A model generated the notes under the pieces. That model saw only the letters and a program-made list of their open reading frames with translations, searched no databases and was not told the origin of the DNA. Positions 24,831 through 36,123 of a stretch of 37,253 nt of DNA are shown piece by piece (the stretch's first letter is position 1; the number at the start of each line of letters is the position of its first letter). A program made the translations under genes and the position numbers. Source of the DNA: a virus; IMG/VR virus record IMGVR_UViG_3300044490_000259, positions 1-37,253 of that record; one strand, 5' to 3'.

Positions 24831-25409
24831 TCACCTCTCATGTCCGCCGCTCCCGCTAGCCGCGAGCGTCGCCGGCCGGCTCACCCGCGCGTGCCAGTGC
24901 CAGCCGACGACACCGAGGTCATCGGCCGGCCGCACCGTGCGGCGACACTCGCTCCCTACGTGTTCGACCAGCTCGGCGGGCGTGAAGGTCCGCGCGCCCG
25001 CCGCCCCGAACGAAAGCACGATGAGCGCCACGGCGCCACACCGCTCGGCGTCTCGTAGCTGGCCCCACTGCTCGGGCCCGAGTCCGCCAGGAGCGCCGAC
25101 CGACCGGGCGTGCGCGTCGATGCCGGAGTCCCACCCGCCGGGGCCCGCGTGACTCTTCGCCTCGATGAGCACGGCGCGCCCGTCGCCGAGGTGGCCCACG
25201 AAGTCGACGCCCTGGGGACCCGCGAAGCACGCGCGGAAGCACGACCGTCCCCGCGCGTCCGGGCGCACCGGGCCGAGCACTCGCGTCGGCGTCCCCACCC
25301 GGCGGACGCATGTGAGATCCTGTCGCGCGAGCTGGGCGTGGTAGGCGTCCAGCGCCGCCTCGAATGCCTCGCCGTGGGCGCGGGCCGCTCGGGCCGATGC
25401 GCTGCTCAT
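24831..25409 (-). CDS. RecU-like Holliday junction resolvase / PD-(D/E)XK nuclease
   Basis: 192 residues from ATG 25409. The nuclease motif is GPQGVDFVGHLGDGRAVLIE followed by AKS, with D69, E83 and K85 as the expected D-E-x-K active site, and an N-terminal helix AHGEAFEAALDAYHAQL typical of RecU. The aromatic/cysteine segment GRSCFRACFAG precedes the core. RecU proteins resolve four-way junctions during recombination and repair. A phage resolvase would debranch replication or recombination intermediates before packaging. It lies in the early operon with replication and recombination genes. A general restriction-type nuclease is the alternative. Confidence 0.75.
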   Translation of the reverse strand: MSSASARAARAHGEAFEAALDAYHAQLARQDLTCVRRVGTPTRVLGPVRPDARGRSCFRACFAGPQGVDFVGHLGDGRAVLIEAKSHAGPGGWDSGIDAHARSVGAPGGLGPEQWGQLRDAERCGAVALIVLSFGAAGARTFTPAELVEHVGSECRRTVRPADDLGVVGWHWHARVSRPATLAASGSGGHER

Positions 25410-26197
25410 GGTGAGTCTCGGCCGCTGCTCAGCAGCGACGCGACGACGGCACTGCCGGCCTTGGGCACGCCGCGCACCACGAGCCATCCGGGCAGGTCGC
25501 CCTGGATGGCGGTGCGGAGCTCGCCGAGTGCCATGTCTCGCACGTCTGGCAGGTCGCGGAAGCGCATGCGGAACGACGGCGGACCGTCCTTCGACAGCGC
25601 CACGTCGAGCCCGATGGACACCTCGTACCTCTCGGCGTGGCCCAGCCAGAGCGGGACCTTGATGCCGAACTCCTTGGGGATTTCGGCCTTTGTCCCCTTG
25701 GCGCCCTCCTTGACGCGGAAGACCGTCTCCGCATCGTTCTCCAGGTCGGCGTCGAACTCCACCTCGACTCTGGCCTTGAAAGCCGACACCGCCGCGAGCG
25801 TGCTCTTGCTCACGAGGTCTCCGGCCCGGTCCTCGATGAAGTTGCGGAGCCTGATGGGGCTCATGTCCTGCCCGACGGACTTCTGCCACGCCTCGATGGC
25901 CGTGGACGGATCGAGGACCATCCGGACCAGAGAGTGGTCGGCTCCTTTGATTTCGTCGATGACCAGGCGCACGCCGCTCGCGTCCACGTACACGGCGGAG
26001 TCGGCAGATCCGTGTATGTTGGCGTAGGCCACGAACGAGTCGCGGCCCGTCAGCGTGTGCAGGCGGCAGGGGCCGCGGCCGTCCACGTGCACGAGCCGCG
26101 AGCCGTCGGCCACAGCCAGTGTATCACCCAGCGCCACGGCCTGAGAGTGCGGCCTGAACCGCTCCAGCAGTTCTTTGATCGTCTCGATGATGCTCAT
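25406..26197 (-). CDS. DUF2303 family protein (YfdQ-like)
   Basis: 263 residues from ATG 26197. The order of elements fits DUF2303: SFVAYANIHGSADSAVYVD, AIEAWQKSVGQDMSPIRLRN, FIEDRAGDLVSKSTL, then a PKEFGIKVPLWLG strand region and SFRMRFRDLPDVRDMALGEL. The biochemical role of the family is not established; members are found in phage early and recombination operons. It overlaps the RecU-like start by 4 nt. The upstream in-frame stretch contains a different gene's complement and was rejected. Confidence 0.75.
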   Translation of the reverse strand: MSIIETIKELLERFRPHSQAVALGDTLAVADGSRLVHVDGRGPCRLHTLTGRDSFVAYANIHGSADSAVYVDASGVRLVIDEIKGADHSLVRMVLDPSTAIEAWQKSVGQDMSPIRLRNFIEDRAGDLVSKSTLAAVSAFKARVEVEFDADLENDAETVFRVKEGAKGTKAEIPKEFGIKVPLWLGHAERYEVSIGLDVALSKDGPPSFRMRFRDLPDVRDMALGELRTAIQGDLPGWLVVRGVPKAGSAVVASLLSSGRDSP

Positions 26198-26905: not shown

Positions 26906-28129
26906 TCACCGCGTCCCCGGCTCGAAGATGCCGAGCAGCGGCTGCACGGAGCCGTCGGCGAAGTGGGCGTCGAGCCACACGTCCCCGGTCGGTTCCGTGC
27001 CGGTCCACCCGTGTGGCCAGGTGCCGGCGGCGAGCAACTCGCGAACCCGGGCCTCTTCCTCCGCGTCGAGCAGCGAGACGGGCGGCCGGCCGGCGATGGC
27101 AGCTCCATCATTGACCCGCCGCTGGATGTCAAGCACCTGGTCGAGCGCCCACGCTCTGGCCTCCAAAGTGATCGGCCCGAGGCGCTGCTGGTTTTTGGAG
27201 AGAGTGCCGTCGGCGCGGGCCTCGCCACCCGGCTGTCGCAATCGCATGATCGCCTTGCGCAACTCGCGCCACAGCGGGCGCAACTCCTTGAGCGGCTCCA
27301 GGTATCTCCACGCCGGCCGCGCAATCACGTTGTCGAGCGCCGTGTCCTTTTCGGTCAGGGGGCAACCCACGCAGCCGGTCCGAGCATTGATCTCTTCGGC
27401 CTCCTCACCGCCATATGCGTCGGCCAAGGCTGCCGTCGGCCAGCCACCGAAGTCCGCGTGCGGAGCGTAGAACTTGAGCCAGTCCCAGACCTTGCAGACC
27501 CGCCAGTGCAGGATCGGGGCGAGCGTGTCGCAGAGCGCGTCGGGCAGCGTCTCCTGATACCAACCCTGCCCGCACTCGGCCCCGTCTTTGGAGCATGACA
27601 TCGCGATGCGACCGTCGCGGATCGCGCTCTCCCCCTGGCGGACACCGGTCAGCGTGAGCACCTTCTCCTGGCGCTCGCCGAAGATGCGTTTGAGCTCGGC
27701 TGCCATCGGGTCGACTTTGATCTGCCGGGTACACCATCGGAGCGTGTTGTTGTTCGGCGGGGGCACGCCGCGCCCGAGGATGTAGACGAGGAAACGCTTG
27801 TCGAGCGGGGCCCGCACGGTGCGCACGTCCACTCCGCGCTCTCGCAGCTTCGCCTGGATCTCGAGCGCCGATGCGTAGAGCGGCAGGAGTTCGAGCCCCG
27901 TGTCCGCGTAAAGCACAGTGAGCGTCTCCGGGTGCTGAATACGGCCAGCGTCGAGCAGGTGGAAGAGCAGTGTGAGCAGCGTCGTGCTGTCCTTCCCACC
28001 GCTCCAAGCGACGGCCCAGTGCCGATGTGTCGGGCCGTACGAGGCCAGCGAGGCCACGGTGAGATCGATGCTCTCTGGGATCTGCAAGCGGCTCGCAGTC
28101 CCGACAAACAGATCGTCCTGTCGCGTCAC
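26906..28129 (-). CDS. DndC-like / PAPS reductase family PP-loop protein
   Basis: 407 residues, GTG start at 28129 overlapping the upstream stop (GTGA). The PP-loop SGGKDST is at 43-49, followed by RWCTRQIKVDP (131-141), GVRQGESAIRD (162-172) and RTGCVGCPLTEKD (250-262) with C253-x-x-C256. This combination is seen in DndC and related PAPS-reductase-fold sulfur-transfer proteins, where the cysteines may hold an iron-sulfur cluster. DndC incorporates sulfur into the DNA backbone as phosphorothioate, but the partner genes dndA, B, D and E are not in this window. Other possibilities are sulfur modification of nucleic acid bases or a PAPS reductase-like enzyme. The fold call is strong; the reaction is inference. 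Confidence 0.75.
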   Translation of the reverse strand: MTRQDDLFVGTASRLQIPESIDLTVASLASYGPTHRHWAVAWSGGKDSTTLLTLLFHLLDAGRIQHPETLTVLYADTGLELLPLYASALEIQAKLRERGVDVRTVRAPLDKRFLVYILGRGVPPPNNNTLRWCTRQIKVDPMAAELKRIFGERQEKVLTLTGVRQGESAIRDGRIAMSCSKDGAECGQGWYQETLPDALCDTLAPILHWRVCKVWDWLKFYAPHADFGGWPTAALADAYGGEEAEEINARTGCVGCPLTEKDTALDNVIARPAWRYLEPLKELRPLWRELRKAIMRLRQPGGEARADGTLSKNQQRLGPITLEARAWALDQVLDIQRRVNDGAAIAGRPPVSLLDAEEEARVRELLAAGTWPHGWTGTEPTGDVWLDAHFADGSVQPLLGIFEPGTR

Positions 28130-29130
28130 TTCGCTCCCCCCAACGCCAGAAATCGTGACTCTGGAAACATGTCCCTCCTGATTTCGAGCGGCGTTCCCGT
28201 CTCCTCCACTCTCCGGCCGTCGATACACACCCAGCCGTCGTCCCATCCGGTGCAGCCTGCGCCGCTACACCGGGGACACGGCGGCCAGTCTCGCTCCGCC
28301 TCCACCGGCTCCGTCGGTCCCGGCGGAGCCTTCCCGACCGACAGACTCGCTGGTCCGCTCCGCCTGCCACGCGCGCTCGCCGGCATCGGTGGCAGGTCTG
28401 GAAGCGGCCCCTCGCCCGCGAGCTTGCGGAGGAACCCGAGGGACGGCGAACCGTTGCGGGTCTTGTCCACCGCCGCGCCGATGGCCCACCGGACGCGCTC
28501 GGCGCCGTGGGCCTGGAGCAGCTCCGCCACCGCGTCGACCACGGCGGGCGGAGGGAACAGGCCGGGAGCTCGACGCCCCATCCCGCCCTGGGTCCGCCAC
28601 CACGCATCGACCAGCCCCCCGACCTCGCCGGAATCGACAGGGGTTTCACGTGCGTGCGCGGGCGCGGCGGTGGCGGCGTCTGGAGAAGGTCTGGAGAAGG
28701 TCTGGATCTCCTTATTAGGGGGTGCAGGGGGGGTGTCCGCGTGGCGGACAAACATGTCCGTATTGCGGACATTCGTGTCCGCGTGGCGGACATCGGTGTC
28801 CGTATTGCGGACATCCGGACTGTCCGTATTGCGGACACTCTTGTCCGCGTGGCGGACATCAGGGGTCTCGCCGGTCCCCTCATGTCCGTCACCCGGACCG
28901 CCGGACGGAAGTCTCGCGACCCACCGCGCTCCGACCTTCTCCGCGTACCCCTCCGACACGACGTCCTCGAGGAGCTCGTACGCCGTCGACCGCGAGGTGC
29001 CCGTGAGCTGGGCGAGCCGTTGCGCGCCGGCGCCGTCGGGGTGGTGGTAGCGGACTGCGATCGCCATGAGCTTCCCGAGCGGCGCGAGGCCGCTGCGCAG
29101 GATTTCGCCGATGTCGGAGCCGAAGGACAC
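28126..29130 (-). CDS. Replication initiator-like protein containing the iteron array
   Basis: 334 residues, GTG start at 29130 with GGAGA upstream. The N-terminal winged-helix-like part includes LMAIAVRYHHPDGAGAQRLA then QLTGTSRSTAYELLEDVVSE (about 21-60). Residues 91-132 are heptad-like repeats DVRHADK-SVRNTDS-PDVRNTD-TDVRHAD-TNVRNTD-MFVRHAD, encoded by the 17-bp palindromes at 28734-28858. A helical DnaD-like part follows (VVDAVAELLQAHGAERVRWA), then a cysteine knuckle CPRCSGAGC near 285-293. In lambda, gene O similarly contains the origin iterons in its middle. The DNA-binding and origin roles are inferred from this analogy. Confidence 0.75.
   Translation of the reverse strand: MSFGSDIGEILRSGLAPLGKLMAIAVRYHHPDGAGAQRLAQLTGTSRSTAYELLEDVVSEGYAEKVGARWVARLPSGGPGDGHEGTGETPDVRHADKSVRNTDSPDVRNTDTDVRHADTNVRNTDMFVRHADTPPAPPNKEIQTFSRPSPDAATAAPAHARETPVDSGEVGGLVDAWWRTQGGMGRRAPGLFPPPAVVDAVAELLQAHGAERVRWAIGAAVDKTRNGSPSLGFLRKLAGEGPLPDLPPMPASARGRRSGPASLSVGKAPPGPTEPVEAERDWPPCPRCSGAGCTGWDDGWVCIDGRRVEETGTPLEIRRDMFPESRFLALGGAK
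28734..28858 (+). repeat. Iteron array: six 17-bp palindromes (putative replication origin)
   Basis: Six perfect copies of TGTCCG-N5-CGGACA start at 28734, 28755, 28776, 28797, 28821 and 28842. Spacers alternate: cgtgg, tattg, cgtgg, tattg, tattg, cgtgg. Start-to-start distances are 21, 21, 21, 24 and 21 bp, two helical turns apart, so all sites face one side of the DNA. A degenerate copy TGTCCGTCACCCGGAC is at 28883-28898. The lower-GC stretch CTCCTTATTAGGG lies just beside the array near 28708-28720. The array is translated in frame as the heptad repeats of the initiator. Likely role: binding sites for the initiator and the phage origin. Confidence 0.85.
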
Positions 29131-31788: not shown

Positions 31789-31997
31789 GCGCGCACAACT
31801 GGCACCACTACGAGGGCGAGGCCCGCGCCAAGGTGCTCCTCGAGCGGGTCCGCGAGTTGAGGGCCGGCACCGAGGAGGAGGCCGTCGCAGCCCTCGCCGA
31901 CATCATCGACGAGGGGGTCCTGGCGCAGCTCGTCTACATCGAGGCCCTCGACATCGCGAAGGGTGAGGGCGACGTGGCCGGGAGGTTCTCGGCATGA
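31785..31997 (+). CDS. Small helical early protein, function unknown
   Basis: 70 residues, GTG start at 31785 inside the previous stop. The sequence (SAHNWHHYEGEARAKVLLER, AALADIIDEGVLAQLVYIEA) is all-helical. No family recognised. Its stop overlaps the exonuclease ATG (ATGA), so translation is coupled to it. Confidence 0.65.
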   Translation: MSAHNWHHYEGEARAKVLLERVRELRAGTEEEAVAALADIIDEGVLAQLVYIEALDIAKGEGDVAGRFSA

Positions 31998-33055
31998 GCG
32001 CCGACATCGACTCCATCCCCGTCGGCGCCCGCGTCATCGACGCGGCCGGCCGGATGTTCGAGCGAACGGGCACGGCCTGGCGCGGGCTCACGCCGGCCGG
32101 CAAGCCGACGGGCGACGTCCTCACGGACAAGGTCATGCAGAAGCAGTCGCTCCGCGTCGTCGAGGGCCCGGCAGCCCGCGTCGCAGAGCCGGCCGTCGCC
32201 CCGCCGACTCTGCCCACCGGAATCGTCCACGGCCTCACCTTCGAGGAGTACAACGCCGACCCGGGCCTGCGCAGCTCGGCGCTCAAGGTGATGCGCCAGT
32301 CGCCGGCCCACTACCGGCATGCCCTGACGCACCCGAGGACGTCGAGTCCGATGCGGCTGGGGACCGCCGCGCACGTCGCGACTCTGGAGCCGGATCGATT
32401 CCGGCGGTCGTTCGCGGTGTGGGACCGCAAGACCGACACGGGCCGCAGTCAGCCCAGGTCAGGAGCCGCGTGGGTCGAGTTCGAGGCCGCGGCCGTTCGG
32501 CGCGGACAGACGGTCATCACGGAGGCGGAGCGCGACGGCGCGCTCGCCATCGCGGAGGCAGTGCGATCCAACCCGGACGCCGCCCGGTATCTCCGCGCGG
32601 GCGAGCCGGAGGTCTCGATGTTCTGGAATCGATGGGGCCGCCGCTGCAAGGGACGAGCGGACTGGACGACGATGCTGGACGGCGCCGACTGCGTGGTCGG
32701 GCTCAAGACAGCGCGAGCCGTCGAAGAGCGCGCGTTCGGCTCGCAGGCCTGGAAGCTCGGCTACCACATGCAGTGGTCGTTCTACCACGACGGGTGGCAG
32801 GCCATTCACCGACGGCCCCCCTTCATGGTGGAGATCGTCGTGGAGTCCGCCGAGCCCCACTGCGTGGCCGTCTACGAGCTCGGCGAGGACTGGCAGGACA
32901 AGGGCCGCGAGGACCTGGAGGCGTGCGCGGCGCGACTCGCCGAGTGCGAGCGCACCGGGCTGTGGCCCGGCCCGGTGGACACCGAGCGGCCTCTGCCGCT
33001 CCCGGCCTGGCTGGGCGAGACCTACGAGCTGACTGTGACGAGCGCGGAGGACTGA
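31994..33055 (+). CDS. RecE / exonuclease VIII-like 5'-3' exonuclease (PD-(D/E)XK)
   Basis: 353 residues from ATG 31994 with GGAGG eight bases upstream. The first 75 residues are a variable, Pro-rich region. The nuclease domain includes RSSALKVMRQSPAHYRHAL, LGTAAHVATLEP, CKGRADWTTM with D223, ADCVVGLKTA with D232 and K238, and YHMQWSFYHDGW with Q260 and Y264. This is the order seen in the RecE C-terminal nuclease. RecE-type enzymes chew 5' strands to expose single-stranded ends for annealing, enabling phage recombination. The following gene is the expected single-strand partner. Catalytic positions agree; substrate preference is inferred. Confidence 0.85.
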   Translation: MSADIDSIPVGARVIDAAGRMFERTGTAWRGLTPAGKPTGDVLTDKVMQKQSLRVVEGPAARVAEPAVAPPTLPTGIVHGLTFEEYNADPGLRSSALKVMRQSPAHYRHALTHPRTSSPMRLGTAAHVATLEPDRFRRSFAVWDRKTDTGRSQPRSGAAWVEFEAAAVRRGQTVITEAERDGALAIAEAVRSNPDAARYLRAGEPEVSMFWNRWGRRCKGRADWTTMLDGADCVVGLKTARAVEERAFGSQAWKLGYHMQWSFYHDGWQAIHRRPPFMVEIVVESAEPHCVAVYELGEDWQDKGREDLEACAARLAECERTGLWPGPVDTERPLPLPAWLGETYELTVTSAED

Positions 33056-34853: not shown

Positions 34854-35272
34854 CCGCGCGTCGGCTCGCCAGAGATGCCGACGTCTGCGAGGCGCTCGGT
34901 GTCAGCGAGCGCCACCTGCGCGCGCTCTGCGCCGCCGGCGACGCGGCCCGCATCCGCGCCCCCTATGGGCGCCCCGGGCGTTCTCGGCTCTGGACGGGCG
35001 ACGAGGTGGCGTGGTTGGCTTGGGCGACGGAGGTTCAGGCATGGCGAGCGTCGAGCAGCGTGGAGACGGCTGGCGCGTCCGATGGCGGACGCTCGGAGGA
35101 GAGCCGCGCTCCCGGCAATGCCCGGACCGCCGCGCGGCCCGCGAGCTCAAAGCGGAGATCGAGCACGCCCAGGCCCTCGGGCGCGACTGGACGGCAGAGG
35201 CTGAGGGACGCGTTGGCCCGGGCCTCGACGACCTCTTCGCCGACGCCCTCGTCGATGCCGGACGCCGGCTGA
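34850..35272 (+). CDS. Excisionase-like winged-helix protein overlapping integrase
   Basis: 140 residues, GTG 34850. The MerR/excisionase-type motif is RDADVCEALGVSERHLRALC, followed by GRSRLWTGDEVAWLAWATEV, all within the first 65 residues. Residues about 66-140 are Ser/Arg-rich and lie antiphase over the integrase gene, so they may not be functional. Location directly before int and the small DNA-binding fold support an excision or directionality factor role. The 232-nt overlap is much longer than the other overlaps here. Confidence 0.6.
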   Translation: MTARRLARDADVCEALGVSERHLRALCAAGDAARIRAPYGRPGRSRLWTGDEVAWLAWATEVQAWRASSSVETAGASDGGRSEESRAPGNARTAARPASSKRRSSTPRPSGATGRQRLRDALARASTTSSPTPSSMPDAG

Positions 35273-36123
35273 AGGCGTCGACCGTCCAGCGCACCGAGAC
35301 GGTCCTCGCGCTCTTCCTCTCCGCCCATCCGGACGCCACGCCGGCAGCGCTCACGGTGGAGACCCTCCACCGCTGGCACGGAACGCTGCTCGCTCGAGGA
35401 CTCGCACGGCGCACCGCAGCCTCGTACCTCTTCGAGGTCGCCCACGTCTGGCGCTGGGCCTACGACTCCGATCGGTGGGGCTCCATCGTGCCGCGCCCGC
35501 GCAAGGTGGATCCGGGCCCCGTGCCGCCCCCGGCGCACGTCCAGGCTCCGGCCCTCGCCGACATCGACCGCGCCATCGCCGCTGCGGCGGTGGGATCGAC
35601 CAGGCCTTCGTGGCCCAGACGCTTGATGCTCGTCGTCCGCTTCACGGGCTTGCGGGCCGGCCAGGCGTCGCGCCTGACCTGGACCGACGTCGACCTCGAC
35701 GCACGGCGCCTCGTCGTGCGTCCCGAGCTGGGCAAGAGCCGGCAGGAGCAGCGCGGGCGCGCGCTCCCCATCCACTCCGCGCTCGCCGCCGAGATGGCTG
35801 GCTGGGGGCGCCGGGAGGGGCTCGTCGTGGACCTCCGTGGGAAGCCCGTCGACCATGCGCTGATGGCGCGCATCTACCGGGACGCCGGCGTCGAGACGCA
35901 GCAGCCGTTCCACGGCATCCGCCACGCCGTCGCGACCCACATGCGCCGGGCCGGGGTCTCGGAGGACGTCGTGGGGCGCCTCCTCGGGCACGGCGCGACC
36001 GTCACCGGGGCTCACTACATCGACCCGGCCGCCCTCTGGCCTGCGATGGTCGATGCCATCGCCACGCTCCCAGAATTGGGAGCCGCCGGTGTGACGGATC
36101 TGGACGCTCGGCGTGCACGCTGA
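35041..36123 (+). CDS. int: Tyrosine integrase
   Basis: 360 residues from ATG 35041, seven bases after GGAGG. It integrates and excises the phage genome by tyrosine-recombinase chemistry. Catalytic candidates are R205 (TGLRAGQ), K232 (GKSRQ), H291-x-x-R294 (FHGIRHAVATH), H317 (LLGHGATV) and Y326 (AHYIDPA). The N-terminal 60 residues resemble an arm-binding domain (MASVEQRGDGWRVRWRTL) and the SAM-like core-binding domain follows. A GTG at 35011 is a possible longer start. Downstream is the putative attP. All active-site residues are present, so it should be functional. Confidence 0.93.
   Translation: MASVEQRGDGWRVRWRTLGGEPRSRQCPDRRAARELKAEIEHAQALGRDWTAEAEGRVGPGLDDLFADALVDAGRRLKASTVQRTETVLALFLSAHPDATPAALTVETLHRWHGTLLARGLARRTAASYLFEVAHVWRWAYDSDRWGSIVPRPRKVDPGPVPPPAHVQAPALADIDRAIAAAAVGSTRPSWPRRLMLVVRFTGLRAGQASRLTWTDVDLDARRLVVRPELGKSRQEQRGRALPIHSALAAEMAGWGRREGLVVDLRGKPVDHALMARIYRDAGVETQQPFHGIRHAVATHMRRAGVSEDVVGRLLGHGATVTGAHYIDPAALWPAMVDAIATLPELGAAGVTDLDARRAR

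Follow-up and report, generated by a model that had tools for sequence, protein, structure and literature searches.

The palindrome array and the gene that contains it

The window analyzed here, an IMG/VR virus contig of 37,253 bases, carries six exact 17-bp palindromes of the form TGTCCG-N5-CGGACA, which begin at 28734, 28755, 28776, 28797, 28821 and 28842. The exact copies are separated by steps of 21, 21, 21, 24 and 21 bp, and their two spacer types follow the order A-B-A-B-B-A on the + strand. A seventh, degenerate copy lies 41 bp from the sixth, giving steps of 41, 21, 24, 21, 21 and 21 bp in gene orientation. No further exact copy was found in the record.

28734..28750, no strand assigned: palindrome with spacer CGTGG (sequence scan)
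28755..28771, no strand assigned: palindrome with spacer TATTG (sequence scan)
28776..28792, no strand assigned: palindrome with spacer CGTGG (sequence scan)
28797..28813, no strand assigned: palindrome with spacer TATTG (sequence scan)
28821..28837, no strand assigned: palindrome with spacer TATTG (sequence scan)
28842..28858, no strand assigned: palindrome with spacer CGTGG (sequence scan)
28883..28899, no strand assigned: seventh copy, TGTCCG-TCACC-CGGACC, with one arm mismatch and in another reading frame (GPGDGH)

The minus-strand ORF 28126-29130 reads the six palindromes as VRHAD/VRNTD. A sequence-only reading had described this array, with its steps and spacer order, and its simultaneous translation as heptads; both descriptions proved exact. 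No two of the 4-7 bp linkers between the copies (AACA, TTCG, TCGG, TCCGGAC and CTCT) are alike, whereas the 12 arm bases are invariant in the six exact copies, so the copies do not represent fresh duplications.

28126..29130, minus strand: putative O-like replication initiator gene, 334 aa, GTG start with GGAG upstream (codon-position G+C and winged helix-turn-helix match)
28915..29118, minus strand: N-terminal winged helix-turn-helix, residues 5-72 (AlphaFold pLDDT mostly 96-98, and Pfam)
28954..28992, minus strand: predicted recognition helix, residues 47-59, RSTAYELLEDVVS, code position Tyr51 (AlphaFold model and helix alignment)
28420..28659, minus strand: helical C-terminal domain, residues 158-237 (AlphaFold, block pLDDT about 54-85)

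The G+C content of the putative initiator gene at the three codon positions (0.72/0.59/0.81) resembled that of clear genes of the same phage, and its TGA stop overlaps the GTG start of the next gene (GTGA). AlphaFold, run on the window protein with 95 array-bearing ORFs, predicted disorder over most of the array-coded stretch, between the confident winged helix and the helical C-terminal domain. The sites thus lie inside the coding sequence, between the DNA-binding and C-terminal parts. The C-terminal domain (158-237) is a possible helicase-loading domain.

The Pfam match of the window protein was the HTH_IclR winged helix (E=4.5e-6) instead of HTH_36, and neither Pfam Phage_rep_O nor PHROG gave a match. 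The protein weakly matched the profile built from the array-carrying family (E=0.0017). No homologues of it were found in the viral contigs, and the 284 genomes from the phylum of a Byssovorax genome yielded four weak partial matches, all without arrays. Sequence and fold searches of the PDB returned generic winged helices or chance matches only. The best reading is that the window initiator functions like O and falls outside the Pfam Phage_rep_O family.

Genomic neighborhood

The surrounding genes include the following:

26906..28129, minus strand: PAPS-reductase-like gene (phrog_12882), GTG start overlapping the initiator stop
24831..25889, minus strand: ORF with a Holliday junction resolvase match (phrog_843)
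31994..33055, plus strand: Exonuclease VIII-like gene (phrog_412)
35011..36123, plus strand: tyrosine integrase

A DUF2303 protein is also present. Judged by these matches, the resolvase-like ORF, DUF2303, exonuclease VIII and integrase mark the early region of a temperate phage. No DnaB or helicase-loader gene was recognized among the scanned neighbors; the next gene is the PAPS reductase. Phage SfV also carries a PAPS reductase, two genes past its replication protein. The neighborhoods of 52 PAPS-reductase relatives held no GTCCG array, and a winged-helix ORF of the window-protein kind occurred in only 3 of the 52.

Constraint at the DNA level and helical phasing

Synonymous codon choice does not explain the array. 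We recoded the peptide synonymously 100,000 times, drawing codons at the frequencies used by the phage, and none of the versions reached the six palindromes observed; the maximum was three, and most versions had none. This result bears on the possibility that the VRxxD heptad is itself functional, with palindromy arising incidentally from codon choice and tandem duplication. The six window copies do share one frame, with steps that are multiples of 3 bp, as such a protein repeat would have. However, the seventh copy is in another frame, the array-coded region is predicted to be disordered, and the recodings failed to reproduce the palindromes. The relatives also departed from this pattern. Among the matches listed, 70 non-redundant arrays read the palindrome in all three frames (counts 78, 115 and 74), giving the peptides VRxxD, (G/S)PxxG or SxxRT depending on the frame; 56 of the 70 mixed frames, and step lengths were even modulo 3. 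The protein-level explanation is already contradicted by these data, and we regard it as highly improbable.

Instead, the 188 steps of the same 70 arrays, among the matches listed, were periodic at 11.1-11.2 bp (Rayleigh p about 1e-37, resultant 0.67). The 21-bp step of the window is one of the common steps among relatives, 22 bp being the commonest, and it is not codon-driven. The earlier proposal of a DNA-level constraint with helical phasing was therefore upheld by the recodings and by this period, whereas a heptad or codon phase as the design principle was not, given the mixed frames and the even distribution of steps over the three codon phases. No relative was seen that kept the heptads with palindromy lost; the reverse was the rule.

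Relatives sharing the GTCCG word

We scanned viral contigs for two GTCCG-N5-CGGAC units spaced 2-30 bases apart and found such arrays in at least 119 stretches. Most lay within an ORF just after an N-terminal winged helix: among the matches listed, 78 distinct ORFs matched at E<0.01 a winged-helix profile seeded from 18 array ORFs, and 57 array loci did not match it. When the arms were scrambled as a control, the complete scan returned 18 stretches, none of them behind a winged helix. Among the matches listed, 95 array ORFs were scanned against known families; phrog_270 'replication initiation protein' matched 67, phrog_391 'O-like' 64, HTH_36 49 and Phage_rep_O six. The array carrier L010 proved homologous to lambda O (E=7e-10), P22 gp18 and phi80 gp15. 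No literature on the GTCCG motif or on the helix code described below was found in the material searched, most subscription journals being outside its scope.

A set of 114 genes was fetched by the HTH alone. At a spacer of 5, 91 of the 114 held two or more equal-arm palindromes, and spacers of 4, 10 and 12 yielded 0-5 per set. Their arms were mostly GTCCG, followed by GGCCG, GTCGG, GGTCA and GTACG, in frequencies biased by the use of array carriers as seeds. These genes bear on the idea that the palindrome is a dispersed element, mobile or forming an RNA hairpin, inserted in a coding gene. Single-strand folding did produce strong hairpins (z=-9.5). However, the record has no exact copies elsewhere, equal-arm palindromes of different sequence with the same 5-bp spacer occupy the same place in related genes, and the arm sequence co-varies with the recognition helix. 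We consider an insertion of this kind hardly credible.

Four TGTCCG-N5-CGGACA palindromes, with steps of 21, 42 and 43, were also observed in E. coli O157 typing phage 14 (KP869112.1, about 44985-45091), a Vequintavirus of 132 kb. This phage was the one hit to the repeat peptide in the phage collection. The hit lies in a hypothetical ORF of 47 aa, with the palindromes in and around it, and not in a recognized initiator gene.

Bacterial genome contigs gave 15 array hits, 13 of which were among the 57 unmatched loci. The arrays inspected there were not behind a winged helix, and some looked like operators. On a Byssovorax contig (L181:5810-5910), four tandem GTCCG-type palindromes in 21-bp steps, with a partly degenerate outer base, lie beside a MerR-like ORF; this arrangement resembles a set of operators and is not part of a phage initiator. 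At L183:7570 and L192:7415, the palindrome lies just outside ORFs resembling regulators (NtrC/Fis-type by eye in L183), which suggests that unrelated proteins use the GTCCG palindrome word.

The window array might likewise be a set of transcriptional operators, with the winged-helix protein an autorepressor or regulator and no origin present. The best Pfam match, HTH_IclR, would suit such a role, as would the occurrence of the palindrome beside other genes in non-viral contigs (such as L181, L183 and L192; gene names read by eye). However, the array lies 230-400 bp inside the gene and not at a promoter. Its architecture and AT dip match the O-like genes to which PHROG assigns replication initiation, and lambda uses the same layout for its origin. 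An operator function is therefore unlikely, though less so than the two alternatives above.

Candidate unwinding region

The stretch directly 3' of the array, in gene orientation, is lower in G+C and contains a short direct repeat.

28679..28718, no strand assigned: candidate unwinding region, 40 bases, 47.5% G+C vs a gene mean of 70%
28678..28706, no strand assigned: direct repeat GTCTGGAGAAG, 2.6 copies, within the candidate unwinding region and beside the array

This AT dip is modest in the window, where the 3' end of the initiator gene is slightly lower in G+C still. Across 70 arrays among the matches listed, the 25 bp that follow the array on the coding 3' side were 18 points lower in G+C, and the 25 bp after those were 9 points lower. 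In 58 of the 70 (among the matches listed), the 40-mer with the least G+C in the whole gene lay no more than 120 bp downstream of the array, with about 13% expected. An AT-rich tract thus directly follows the sites, modestly in the window and strongly across the 70 relatives listed. The cumulative GC-skew minimum of the record is at 28629, in a broad trough that also fits the change in gene direction.

The recognition helix and the arm base

For the 60 genes of the actinobacterial family, knowing residue X of the recognition-helix motif RS[ST][AV]X was enough to predict the third base of the arm in every case. Ile, Val, Leu or Thr accompanied T (37 genes), Arg accompanied G (20), and Gln or Glu accompanied C (3). 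The label of one gene, L390, was changed manually to GGCCG from GGCCC, with G as the third base in either case. Column X carried all 1.17 bits of information on the arm base, and the next column carried 0.74. Seven coincident residue and base changes were placed on a tree built without the recognition helix. Independent contrasts on the best tree agreed in six of six pairs' worth of changes, only as one-to-one residue/base classes; on well-supported branches three of three pairs agreed, too few for a formal test.

In 70 GTCCG genes, X was mainly Ile, Val, Ala or aromatic, and Arg occurred once. The sole exception to the code among GTCCG carriers was L061 (L061:5911-7053), in which seven identical TGTCCGGAAACCGGACA palindromes have T as the third base, yet Arg stands at the aligned code position, in a different helix family. 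We dropped an extension of the code to lambda, P22, phi80 and HK544, since register and fold family differ.

The window protein has Tyr51 at the code position with T as the third base, which is consistent with the code, itself established in the actinobacterial relatives. The co-variation of helix and site in the relatives is the strongest indication obtained that the encoded protein recognizes its own array, which we consider very probable; the sequence relationship of the window protein to the others is weak. For the family at large, we think it rather probable that winged-helix phage initiators of several bacterial phyla share the origin word GTCCG-N5-CGGAC and a readable code, in which one recognition-helix residue sets one arm base and both change together.

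Comparison with known origins

The origins of iteron plasmids (RepA/Rep type) combine an AT-rich region with adjacent initiator sites that recur at helical spacing. Plasmid iterons are direct repeats, typically outside the rep gene, whereas the window sites are palindromes inside the initiator gene. The closer parallel is the lambda origin. In mid-gene O of lambda, an AT-rich tract adjoins the iterons, each of which is an imperfect inverted repeat of 19 bp; in Stx phages, additional iterons make the protein 13 residues longer (PMC7466680). The earlier suggestion that the window design is distinct from that of lambda O did not hold: the lambda iteron TCCCTC-AAAAC-GAGGGA is also an interrupted inverted repeat of 6+5+6 bp, with 20-24 bp steps inside O beside the AT-rich tract. 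The origins in lambda O, Stx phages, P22 gene 18 and phi80 gene 15 all share with the window interrupted palindromes of about 17-19 bp, steps of 20-24 bp, a position in the initiator gene and an AT-rich neighboring tract. Lambda differs in having TCCCTC arms and four imperfect iterons, whereas the window has TGTCCG arms in six perfect copies and one degenerate copy; lambda O also belongs to Pfam Phage_rep_O, where the window protein has no match.

Other arms occur in the same layout, as in phi80 (CGGGAA-GAAAA-TTCCCG) and SV1 (GGGCCG-AAATC-CGGCCC). The 'O-like' initiators of HTH_36 and PHROG 270 and 391, such as those of the Streptomyces phages SV1 and SoJo, share with the window a winged helix, in-gene palindromes with a 5-bp spacer and a C-terminal domain. 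In SV1 and SoJo, Arg at the code position goes with arms that mostly read GGGCCG, in contrast to TGTCCG with Tyr and no PHROG match in the window. In SoJo, a helicase loader adjoins the initiator. We regard the array as an origin of the lambda type whose recognition word differs and whose initiator belongs outside Phage_rep_O. What goes beyond the known is the breadth of the origin word and the helix-site code.

Proposed origin and its implications

The array is in all likelihood the replication origin of a temperate phage, arranged as in lambda, within the central, linker-encoding part of the gene for its own initiator. An origin inside the initiator gene had been proposed at the outset, and it is supported by the array, the gene architecture, the DNA-level constraint, the helical phasing, the O-like relatives, the AT dip and the co-variation of helix and site in the relatives. 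We infer its activity in this phage, together with the binding, unwinding and helicase-loading steps. Dimers of the encoded winged-helix protein would bind each 17-bp palindrome, with one recognition helix per half-site. Adjacent dimers, stacked along approximately one face of the helix, would wrap the DNA and open the AT-richer tract that lies directly 3' of the palindromes. Recruitment of the host replicative helicase would then fall to the C-terminal domain. The repeated peptide VRxxD would be a by-product within the disordered linker.

This interpretation extends the lambda origin layout far beyond the lambdoid phages and provides a simple sequence signature for finding phage origins. Since the site and its reader lie in one gene, natural variants come as matched pairs, and the recognition code and the co-evolution of initiator and origin can be read from sequence and put to direct test. 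If the shared word and code hold, each such gene would be a self-addressed replicon module, and to switch specificity the protein and all half-sites of its array would have to change together.
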